DNA of 60,179 nucleotides from contig JAGVZA010000016.1 of assembly GCA_018302985.1 (NCBI GenBank), positions 1 through 60,179 of the forward strand. Reading direction: 5' to 3'. A program made the position numbers and the translations under genes. Source of the DNA: Candidatus Woesearchaeota archaeon (GTDB lineage: Archaea > Nanobdellota > Nanobdellia > SCGC-AAA011-G17 > UBA489). The notes under the pieces were generated by a model. It saw only the letters and a list, made by a program, of their open reading frames with translations. It was not told the DNA's origin and ran no database searches. Each line of letters begins with the position of its first letter. Positions within the stretch are counted from its first letter, which is position 1. Positions 56,238 to 60,179 of the stretch are shown piece after piece.

Positions 56238-56293
56238 AGAGGTTAAAAGCACTAAAAATCATTTATAAAGTTTTGCCAGTAGGAAAAAGAAAG

Positions 56294-56379
56294 CGCCTTG
56301 GAGAGGATTTGAACCTCCGACCACATGGTGTCTGCTGTATTTAACAGCCATGTGCTCTACCAGGCTGAGCTACCAAGGC
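56294..56379 (-). tRNA. tRNA-Asn(GTT) with 12-nt intron at 37/38
   Basis: The acceptor is GCCTTGG/CCAAGGC, discriminator G; D stem GCTC/GAGC; T arm GGAGG-TTCAAAT-CCTCT. The anticodon stem CATGG/CCATG encloses 19 nt: the loop CTGTTA, a 12-nt insert (AATACAGCAGAC) and A. Its removal gives a standard 7-nt loop with anticodon GTT. CTGT and ACAG can pair to form the central helix of a bulge-helix-bulge, the EndA substrate. A TTTAAAAA box lies about 25 nt upstream. Confidence 0.93.
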
Positions 56380-56493
56380 ACTATAAAGCAGGGCTTTTAT
56401 GACGTTTAAAAAACTTTCTTATCTCCGCTTTTTTCGTAAGCTTTTCGCTTTTTTCTACAGAAGTGCTATAAATAGTATTTCCTTCTCTATTCC

Positions 56494-56595
56494 ATGCTCC
56501 CTCAACAACCTTTAACTATTCTGTTAGTAGGCATAACTCTCTATTTTCTTTTAGAAGTTATGATTTCTTTGCTCAGGACTAAAAGAGACGCTTGA
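56494..56595 (+). CDS. 33-residue membrane peptide
   Basis: ATG 56494, about 22 nt after a CTATAAATAG box, opens MLPQQPLTILLVGITLYFLL, a single hydrophobic helix, with a basic end (LLRTKRDA). The last 17 nt overlap the convergent surface-protein gene. No relatives are recognised. Confidence 0.5.
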   Translation: MLPQQPLTILLVGITLYFLLEVMISLLRTKRDA

Positions 56596-57403
56596 AAAAT
56601 AAGATAATTTTCTGCCATAAAGAGAGTGATTGTTCTTCCACTTTTTTTACTTCTGACTGGGTGGATTCTTTTTGACTTTTTTTACAACAACATACTTTTC
56701 CTGTAGCACAATACCCAGTTCCTTTGCTATATTCATCTGATAAACAAGAGACTACATTAGGATTGCTTTTTTGATCACGACATGATGATTCACCATAACC
56801 TTCTTCTTGACAGACATCAAAACAAGTAATATCTGCGCAATCAGAATAACATCTCTCACCACCATCACAAATACCATCTCCGCAAATTAAATCGGCAGGA
56901 TTTTTTTCTTTAGTTGTATTAATTTTCTCAAATTTCTCACCTGTAACAATTATACTTAAGGACTCTTTGAGGATTGGATAAGTCTTATAGTATGCAATGA
57001 TTTTTGCTGCTCTACGAGTATCTTCTAAAGAACTTCCAGCAATAATTAAATCGTTGCCTGCAACACGAAGCACTGCTTCTCCTTGCTTATAAGGCCATTC
57101 TTCACAGCTTATGGGGATGAGTCCATTGTCACAGGGATGACCAATGAGAATTTTTGATTCGTCTGGCGTTACTTCATCTTCTATAACAGTTTCCAGATCA
57201 GGTGCATTTACATTGAACTTTTTAATACCTATAGCAACATCTATGGCTGCAAAACTGTCTCCGCCTTTTGCTTTCGCTCCTAACACTATTTTATGCTGAT
57301 CATCTACTCTTTGTAAATATTCATAGATAGAATCTACTGCTGCAAAAGTTATTGGTGCACTTAGGAATAAACACAATACTAGTACTAGAACAACTCTTTT
57401 CAT
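56579..57403 (-). CDS. Secreted S-layer-domain-like protein with Cys-rich C-terminus
   Basis: The 274-residue protein has a signal peptide (VVLVLVLCLFLSAPITFA), a domain with KILIGHPCDN and LRVAGNDLIIAGSSLEDTRR, typical of archaeal S-layer-like proteins, then a Cys-rich module (CGDGICDGGERCYSDC) and a basic hydrophobic end (SLWQKIILFFKRLF) that may anchor it. Its ATG overlaps the end of the upstream wHTH gene by 4 nt. Confidence 0.78.
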   Translation of the reverse strand: MKRVVLVLVLCLFLSAPITFAAVDSIYEYLQRVDDQHKIVLGAKAKGGDSFAAIDVAIGIKKFNVNAPDLETVIEDEVTPDESKILIGHPCDNGLIPISCEEWPYKQGEAVLRVAGNDLIIAGSSLEDTRRAAKIIAYYKTYPILKESLSIIVTGEKFEKINTTKEKNPADLICGDGICDGGERCYSDCADITCFDVCQEEGYGESSCRDQKSNPNVVSCLSDEYSKGTGYCATGKVCCCKKSQKESTQSEVKKVEEQSLSLWQKIILFFKRLF

Positions 57404-58326
57404 ACTTTCCTTACCAACATGAATCCTTTTAAATTTTTTTCTTTGTATTCCTGAGCTTTTTTAGATAGTTCTCCGTTAGTTAGCAAAATGACTGGGAGTT
57501 TTTTTAATTGGCCTTGATTATGCGCTAAACTTAAATCTGAATCTGCAATCTTCTTCTTATTCTTTGCAATGACCACATATTCGAGCAATCCTACATTAGA
57601 AGGAACTTTGGCAATAAGCTCATATTCTTTATTTTTCTTCAGTATTTTTTCTTCAAGCACTTGAATATGGTTATTTTGTAAATAAGCTCTTATGATGGCA
57701 ATGAATGCGTCTGTAGATTCTTTTTTAACACTTGATTTTTTCTGTTCTTTCTGTGCTATTGGTTTTTCCTGCATTAAAGGTGATTTTTCTAGAACTGGTA
57801 CTGTTGGTTGTTTTGGAAGAGGTTGTACTACAGGCTGTTGGATTGGCTGCTGCACTTGCATTACAGGTTCTTGCACTAACACAGTTGGTTGAGGTGGTGT
57901 TAATGGTACATTGACTTTGACTGGTTGTTCTTCTTTGTTTTGCAGATACCATCGCCATATGATTTCTTGGTTTTCATTATAAAAGGGAATTGCAAAGTCT
58001 TTAATGGCTCGGAGAGCAACACGAATTGCTGGCTCTGTTTCTTTATCTTTGAGTATTTTTTTCTCTTTCAAGAGGTTAAAGGCTTCTTTTTCTTTTTGTG
58101 GAAGCCCATTGTATAACATAGTTAATTTTTCTTCTTGACCTGGAAAATAGTAGACGGGGGTTCCGCCAACTTTTGCACTACTAATCTTGATAATTTTACT
58201 ATTCAATAATTCTGAGAGAATTGCTCCGGCATAGAAAGTATCTTTTCCCAAGTCCTTTGCTACTTGCATGGGAATTACTGGTCCCTTAGCTTTAACAAAA
58301 GCAAGCACTTTATCACGCATTTCCAT
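57400..58326 (-). CDS. Winged-helix plus restriction-endonuclease-like domain protein
   Basis: The 308-residue protein begins with a wHTH (KVLAFVKAKGPVIPMQVAKD; SKIIKISSAKVGGTPVYYFP). A Pro/Gln/Val-rich linker (about 140-195) leads to a C-terminal alpha/beta domain (YELIAKVPSNVGLLEYVVIA, KKLPVILLTNGELS) similar to a nuclease-like fold but without a clear PD-ExK. Similar proteins are common in DPANN genomes (recollection). The role is unknown. Confidence 0.72.
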   Translation of the reverse strand: MEMRDKVLAFVKAKGPVIPMQVAKDLGKDTFYAGAILSELLNSKIIKISSAKVGGTPVYYFPGQEEKLTMLYNGLPQKEKEAFNLLKEKKILKDKETEPAIRVALRAIKDFAIPFYNENQEIIWRWYLQNKEEQPVKVNVPLTPPQPTVLVQEPVMQVQQPIQQPVVQPLPKQPTVPVLEKSPLMQEKPIAQKEQKKSSVKKESTDAFIAIIRAYLQNNHIQVLEEKILKKNKEYELIAKVPSNVGLLEYVVIAKNKKKIADSDLSLAHNQGQLKKLPVILLTNGELSKKAQEYKEKNLKGFMLVRKV

Positions 58327-58384
58327 AGCATGAAAATAAGAAAAGAAGTTTTTAAGGTTTGTTGTGATTTAGACTACTTTGGAT

Positions 58385-58828
58385 TTACCAATGTATCCAT
58401 TTTTCATATATGGCACTCCATGCATTAGTTATTAACCAGATAGGGAATAATTCCGATGTTTCTATTGTTAAAGAATACATAGCTCCTCCACTGGCAGCCA
58501 GCATTGCGAGAGGAGTCATAATATTTCTCGTAGTATCAGCTACGTTTCTTCTTACAGTTGTATAAATCTGTTTGTTAGAAGAAGGCATATTACTATCGAT
58601 TAGGTGGTTGTGATCAGGTAAACATGTTTCAACTAACCTCTCTATACTTGGTTTAATTCTACGCTCTACAAAGGAAGCCATTACAAAACTTCCTAGTACT
58701 CCAGTTAACGTACCTATAGTACTTCCTGCTGCTGCACCTATCAAAACTTCGGCACCAACTCTACAACGAGAATAAGGAGGCGTTTGTAGATCTTCTGCTA
58801 TTAAGGTAACTTGTTGTATGTCTGTCAT
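58385..58828 (-). CDS. Hypothetical membrane protein with Gly-rich helix
   Basis: The 147-residue protein has a Gly/Ala-rich hydrophobic stretch (VLIGAAAGSTIGTLTGVLGS, about residues 28-47) and a second weak helix (NIMTPLAMLAASGGAMYSL). It is preceded by an A/T-rich region. No family is recognised. Confidence 0.55.
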   Translation of the reverse strand: MTDIQQVTLIAEDLQTPPYSRCRVGAEVLIGAAAGSTIGTLTGVLGSFVMASFVERRIKPSIERLVETCLPDHNHLIDSNMPSSNKQIYTTVRRNVADTTRNIMTPLAMLAASGGAMYSLTIETSELFPIWLITNAWSAIYEKWIHW

Positions 58829-58955
58829 TTTTTAGAGAATTATAGTTTATTTATAAAAGTATGCTCTTCTTTTTTACTTCTTTTTAGGGACTTTAACTGT
58901 TACTTTACAAATACTAATATTATATTTTAGCTCTAGATAGAAATCAACTTCAAAT

Positions 58956-59192
58956 TTAAGGTCTTATCCAGCTGACTGTGTAATACGTAACATCCCCTTC
59001 ATCATCGACAATGCCAATTAACAAGTTCTTCCTAGTCGAATGCGCTACACGATTCTTAGCAGAGAATTCGTACCAGGTTTGTGTTTCGCCTTCGTGCACT
59101 GGATAGAGAATCCATTTTGCATGATCATCGCCTGGCTTGATGCCACGATCATACACTCTGAAGTCTGCGCCGAATTTTAAGGCAGTTTTCAC
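58956..59192 (-). CDS. endA: tRNA-splicing endonuclease EndA, C-terminal catalytic part
   Basis: The 78-residue ORF is the catalytic domain alone: LKFGADFRVYDRG with the catalytic Tyr, HAKWILYPVHEGE with the His, and VAHSTRKNLLIGIVDDEGDV with the Lys of the EndA triad. It starts at GTG 59192 (overlapping the N-part stop as GTGA); in the same frame the sequence reads NIVKTALKFG just upstream, like the family's IVKTGLKFG. The usual 40 residues between N- and C-domains are absent. It cuts bulge-helix-bulge tRNA introns. Confidence 0.88.
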   Translation of the reverse strand: MKTALKFGADFRVYDRGIKPGDDHAKWILYPVHEGETQTWYEFSAKNRVAHSTRKNLLIGIVDDEGDVTYYTVSWIRP

Positions 59193-59413
59193 AATATTTT
59201 TTTCTTCTCTACTAAATAACAGGCTTCGACTAATGAGTATACTTGTTTTCCTTCTTGTGGCTCACCAAAACGAGATTGATCATATAATGAACGAGCTTCT
59301 CCCTTGTCATCTGTAAGTACTCTTTCTCTTGAGAGCACTGCTTTGATCTTTTTCTTGCTGCTGAAACTTTGTTTCTCTGTTCCTTGTTGTACTTGTTCTT
59401 GTTTTTTTACCAT
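59189..59413 (-). CDS. endA: tRNA-splicing endonuclease EndA, N-terminal part
   Basis: The 74-residue ORF matches the EndA N-domain (VLSRERVLTDDKGEARSLYD; RFGEPQEGKQVYSLVEACYL) and stops soon after, at EKKKIL. It ends in a run of seven A before TTGTGA. Of three ATGs at 59419, 59416 and 59413, the last gives the 23-nt TATA spacing. It overlaps the C-part by 4 nt. One extra A, or a -1 shift on A7, would fuse the two parts. Confidence 0.82.
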   Translation of the reverse strand: MVKKQEQVQQGTEKQSFSSKKKIKAVLSRERVLTDDKGEARSLYDQSRFGEPQEGKQVYSLVEACYLVEKKKIL

Positions 59414-59435
59414 CATCATTGAGTGAATCGGAAAC

Positions 59436-59443
59436 TATATAAA
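59436..59443. promoter_or_regulatory. Shared TATA box of endA and rnz
   Basis: TATATAAA is 23 nt from ATG 59413 (endA, minus) and 23 nt from ATG 59466 (rnz, plus), so both tRNA-processing genes appear to fire from one element. Confidence 0.65.
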
Positions 59444-59465
59444 AAGCTTGTCTTTGTGTTGGTTT

Positions 59466-60179
59466 ATGGAAATAACCTTTCTCGGGACTGGTTCGATGTT
59501 GCCTACAAAGGAGCGTAATGGCACAGCTGTGCTGTTGACCTATAGAGATCAGGGTATTTTGTTTGATTGTGGAGAAGGAACACAACGACAATTACGGATT
59601 GCTAATATCCCTCCTACTAAGATTACTAAAATTTTAGTTAGTCATTGGCATGGTGATCATGTTTTTGGATTACCAGGACTTATTTTGACTCTTGGATCAA
59701 GTCATTATCAAGGCACGTTAGAGATGTATGGTCCAAAGAAAAGCAAACAACGTCTTGCAGATCTTCGTAAACCTTTTGTTGCTCAAAATACTTTACCTCT
59801 TACTTTAAAAGAAGTAGACAAAGGAGTCTTTTACGAGAATGATTTTTTCAAGCTGGAAGCATTGCCTTTGGAACATAGCACTACGGTCTTAGGTTATTCT
59901 TTTATTGAACAAGATAAGTTCCATATTAATTTACCTTATATTAAAAAAGTTGGTTTACTGAACAATCCTTTATTGAGTGATTTACAGAAAGGCAAGGATG
60001 TAGTATGGCAAGGCAAAAAAATCAAAGCGAAAGATGCTACTACACGCTCTCCAGGCAAAAAAATAACTTTTATCACAGATACTAAATATTGTGCTAATGC
60101 AGTCAAATTAGCCAAGCATGCTGATGTCCTTATTTGTGAATCTACTTACATGGATGAGTTGAAAGACAAAGCCAAAGAA
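59466..60179 (+). CDS. rnz: Ribonuclease Z, N-terminal portion (cut by window end)
   Basis: The frame starts MEITFLGTGSMLPTKERNG and has ILFDCGEGTQRQLR, the metallo-beta-lactamase zinc motif VSHWHGDHVFGLPGL, and ITFITDTKY. It continues past the window edge. RNase Z removes tRNA 3' trailers, so it pairs functionally with the divergent splicing endonuclease. Confidence 0.93.
   Translation, partial: MEITFLGTGSMLPTKERNGTAVLLTYRDQGILFDCGEGTQRQLRIANIPPTKITKILVSHWHGDHVFGLPGLILTLGSSHYQGTLEMYGPKKSKQRLADLRKPFVAQNTLPLTLKEVDKGVFYENDFFKLEALPLEHSTTVLGYSFIEQDKFHINLPYIKKVGLLNNPLLSDLQKGKDVVWQGKKIKAKDATTRSPGKKITFITDTKYCANAVKLAKHADVLICESTYMDELKDKAKE

Follow-up and report, generated by a model that had tools for sequence, protein, structure and literature searches.

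The tRNA-splicing endonuclease of M. jannaschii (EndA, structure 1A79) is of the alpha4 type and comprises one N-domain and one catalytic C-domain with conserved Tyr, His and Lys residues. In other archaea, (alpha beta)2 enzymes have been found (PMC6379350), which are made of two separately encoded subunits that have a fold of their own and are conserved among relatives. The shortest solved catalytic relative is the alpha subunit of the N. equitans enzyme (3IEY, 154 aa), which is short at its N-terminus. When endA is repressed in Haloferax volcanii, growth is severely affected and the maturation of both tRNA and rRNA is impaired (PMC7714728). With respect to recoding, one archaeal -1 frameshift is established, that of fucA1 in S. 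solfataricus; its slippery site A-AAA-AAT is in phase and the shift results in a complete protein (PMC8211752).

A 124-bp deletion in endA

The locus analyzed here lies in a window of 60,179 nts (the whole stretch of DNA under analysis), taken from a genome assembly, G000, of 1.04 Mb in 24 contigs that is about 88% complete. The initial annotation had described the N- and C-parts of EndA as separate ORFs overlapping by GTGA, with an A7 run just before a break that a -1 shift would bridge, and had noted that about 40 residues would be missing even from a fused protein. These observations were borne out. The two ORFs overlap by 4 bases (GTGA) and match PF02778 with 39.3 bits and PF01974 with 68.8 bits, above the curated cut-offs of 21 and 27 bits respectively, and the match of the pair to both EndA domains is far beyond chance. 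Each domain match is cut off on the side of the joint (Table 1), and the window copy offers no single open frame through both complete domains. A -1 shift at the A7 run joins the two frames; the fused product would be about 154 aa long and about 41 residues are absent from it compared to other archaeal EndA. Y131, H168 and K172 (or an adjacent invariant Lys), which are invariant in the EndA alignment and which we take to be the catalytic residues, are present in the C-part, where the conserved Tyr, His and Lys lie in the motifs YDRG and RVAHSTRK. The window endA is a broken copy of the gene and not a working member of the archaeal EndA family.

Table 1. Position of endA, of its deletion junction and of neighbouring features in the window
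Feature	Coordinates	Strand	Remarks
endA N-terminal part	59189..59419	minus	76 aa; PF02778 positions 1-52 of 67, E=4.6e-10
endA C-terminal catalytic part	58956..59192	minus	78 aa from GTG; PF01974 positions 19-85 of 85, E=4.2e-19
A7 run (T7 on plus strand)	59197-59203	minus	Immediately 5' of the joint; same A7 in the intact G002 gene
Deletion junction	59196/59197		124 bp of G002 absent; 59197 = L032 2775, 59196 = L032 2898; 2-bp microhomology (AT)
tRNA-Asn(GTT), 12-nt canonical-position intron	56293..56379	minus	ARAGORN, introns allowed; EndA-requiring substrate
tRNase Z-like metallo-beta-lactamase	59469..60179, runs off window	plus	PF12706, PF13691; gapless alignment to G002

Comparison with relatives, which the initial annotation had suggested, was carried out by blastn against locus L032 of G002, a genome of the same genus that encodes an intact EndA of 195 aa. 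The window is ~94% identical to this locus at the DNA level over 3.76 kb (window 56423-60178) and the sole gap in the alignment is the absence of 124 bp. Since this length is 3x41+1 and leaves a remainder of 1 modulo 3, one deletion accounts for both the 41 lost residues and the frame break. Of the earlier idea that a homopolymer error had occurred on top of an internal deletion, the deletion therefore stands and the second event is unnecessary. The layout of the intact gene, with one PF02778 and one PF01974 domain in about 195 aa, is alpha4-type; its product aligns end-to-end with 1A79 (E=1.2e-30) and has the N. equitans alpha subunit as its closest solved relative (E=4.4e-35). The window copy differs from the M. 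jannaschii enzyme in being out of frame and in missing 41 residues where the two domains join. We hold with high confidence that the locus is an ordinary single-chain archaeal endA, from a Woesearchaeota-type archaeon, lacking one contiguous 124-bp piece in the assembly.

The deletion takes out the codons for residues 75-116 (G002 numbering). The TGA stop of the N-part is reached only owing to the frame shift that follows, and the GTG start of the C-part is a chance codon, the true frame running on 5' up to the joint. The same 124-bp loss shifts the downstream frame, so that a ribosome meets the TGA just beyond the A7 run. What is made would be an N-terminal fragment without function, and the ORF that opens at the fortuitous GTG is a remnant.

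Relative to the intact G002 gene, the N-part shows 3 base differences in 216, with one amino-acid change, and the C-part shows 28 in 228, 26 of them at third codon positions, its 76 codons being identical at the amino-acid level. At least 12 of these 28 differences fall on the window branch when G001 is used as an outgroup. As they have changed no amino acid, the deletion is either very recent or an assembly error, and the pattern of substitutions indicates that endA was under full selection until very recently. Identity between the window and G002 is uneven, reaching 100% in some 100-bp stretches and falling to 76-82% at window 59023-59122 and 59523-59622, where the divergence within endA is nearly all synonymous; this patchiness may reflect recombination between strains.

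The A7 run and the lost segment

A functional shortened EndA could be produced by programmed -1 frameshifting or transcript slippage at the A7 run, as the initial annotation had proposed. The joining of the two frames by a -1 shift agrees with this, and fucA1 provides an archaeal precedent in which, as in the window, two overlapping ORFs adjoin an A-rich run ending in T. However, the fucA1 site is in phase and gives a complete protein, whereas the phase is wrong in the window, with 41 residues missing. The zero frame reads AAG AAA AAA ATA, which offers G AAA AAA as its sole tandem site and contains no X XXY YYZ heptamer in the zero-frame phase; nor is the frame break kept in any of the relatives surveyed. 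Furthermore, the intact G002 gene carries an A7 run of the same length in frame (GAG AAG AAA AAA ATG). It follows that the run belongs to the ancestral coding sequence and is not a recoding signal. Runs of at least 7 A or T number 62 in the 60-kb window and the presence of one beside the joint is not beyond chance.

The structural consequences of the deletion were assessed on an AlphaFold model of the intact G002 EndA (mean pLDDT 85.5). The lost segment comprises a strand (75-78) and two helices (87-97 and 101-113), and includes the invariant R114 and Y116 together with many nearly invariant positions. According to this model, both domains of the fused ~154-aa product would have an incomplete core and the product would probably be inactive. 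The N. equitans alpha subunit is about as long as this hypothetical product, but its shortness is at the N-terminus and it retains the segment deleted in the window, with the strand, the two helices and the invariant residues. We consider rescue by frameshifting or slippage most improbable.

The initial annotation had also considered a two-subunit enzyme, which would form by association of the N- and C-parts as separate chains. Both parts are indeed open and unmutated, and (alpha beta)2 enzymes occur in other archaea; however, the recency of the deletion accounts for the conserved state of the two parts, and the very segment lost in the window is covered by the alignment of solved alpha and beta subunits. 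The split is located inside the fold and not between duplicated units, it is shared by no relative, and G000 holds a single PF01974 and a single PF02778 domain, relatives having one whole gene. Two assembling chains are hardly credible here. Overall, a working splicing endonuclease without the strand and two helices, be it as two chains or frameshifted, in an archaeon with tRNA introns, is very unlikely.

endA in the genome and in relatives

A separate complete endA elsewhere had been raised by the initial annotation as counter-evidence; none was found in the 24 contigs of the ~88% complete genome, which holds a single PF02778 and a single PF01974 only. The lost segment was not found elsewhere in this genome with a 42-aa query, a result that is weak alone, and a 121-aa query matched the C-part only. 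On these searches, relocation of the segment as a trans-encoded piece was rejected. A generally error-prone assembly was likewise rejected: among 58 sampled G002 ORFs of at least 130 aa with a match in G000, 57 are in one frame there and endA is the only broken one.

PF01974 is present in 96 of the 103 genomes of the order, and is whole or nearly so in a single frame in 95 of these. All 95 match the profile from position 1-3 without an internal stop; the window's genome alone begins at position 12. At loci from named genomes, EndA is encoded in one frame in 79 cases out of 80. No recurrent split was seen among the 96 genomes bearing PF01974, and the frame break is common to no relative. Relatives nearly always carry one endA copy.

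The survey gave three further observations. Firstly, the endA gene at L076:2719-3295 (JAGVYN010000023.1, Woesearchaeota RIFOXYD1_FULL_40_14) has its frame broken by an exact 61-bp tandem duplication in the segment MRNRGYIIKTALKFGADFRVY. This is a further rearrangement (or error of assembly) that disrupts the endA frame, independent of the first and near the position of the window joint. Secondly, searches with PF01974, with the 195-aa protein and with a 42-sequence profile gave no EndA in G011, G033, G049, G070, G077, G089 and G093. Six of these seven genomes have RtcB and G011 is rated 100% complete; possible explanations are gaps in the assemblies, loss of the gene or an EndA that has diverged strongly. 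Thirdly, at G011:C53:1891-4692 and G073:C17:3145-5949, some 1.4 kb of additional sequence interrupts RtcB after about profile position 50-66. The frame stays open throughout, over about 1010 aa, and the interruption resembles an intein.

tRNA introns and the origin of the deletion

Using ARAGORN with introns allowed, at least five genes of G000 (tRNA-Asn, -Thr, -Tyr, -Ser and -Trp) were found to carry canonical-position introns of 12-14 nt, and all five intron-bearing tRNAs fold with a 3-nt bulge adjoining the intron helix; longer-intron candidates were also obtained, several of them doubtful-looking. RtcB is intact in this genome. Because intron-bearing tRNAs and RtcB have been retained, a working EndA is needed, and this need makes fixed loss, which is hard to reconcile with viability, less likely than a variant short of fixation or a local misassembly. 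On these grounds we lean slightly towards a misassembly or a minority variant.

Two origins of the deletion can be envisaged. It is just about probable that the gene is whole in the cells and that the assembler dropped 124 bp next to two similar A-rich tracts: G002 has two copies of the tract AAGAAAAAAAT 30 bp apart, one located at the junction and the other within the lost piece. The persistence of the tRNA introns and of RtcB points the same way, as do the flanking coding sequence, which shows no relaxation, and the existence of another MAG (L076) whose duplication disrupts the same gene. However, a de Bruijn misjoin would be expected to show more homology at its junction than 2 bp, and no comparable damage was seen in the sampled rest of the assembly. 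Alternatively, a real and recent deletion may be carried by some or all of the cells in the population, the loss-of-function allele being transient or else tolerated through an intact copy in the 12% of the genome that the assembly does not cover; we regard this origin as a serious possibility that falls somewhat short of probable. The clean junction, with microhomology as in illegitimate recombination, and the lack of other frame breaks in the sampled genes are consistent with such an event, but the severity of the H. volcanii knock-down and the EndA substrates still encoded in the genome argue against it, and a fixed real loss fits badly with tRNA introns and RtcB being present.

Whichever its origin, the case calls for caution, as an out-of-frame deletion imitates a split enzyme with a slippery site and deserves little weight as biology; in annotation, G000 would be scored as having no EndA or a heteromeric one. 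A deletion fixed in living cells would raise the question of how tRNAs with introns can be processed when no normal EndA is present. In both the window (59448-60179) and G002, endA is divergent from the tRNase Z-like gene, and these two tRNA-processing nucleases have an intergenic region in common.
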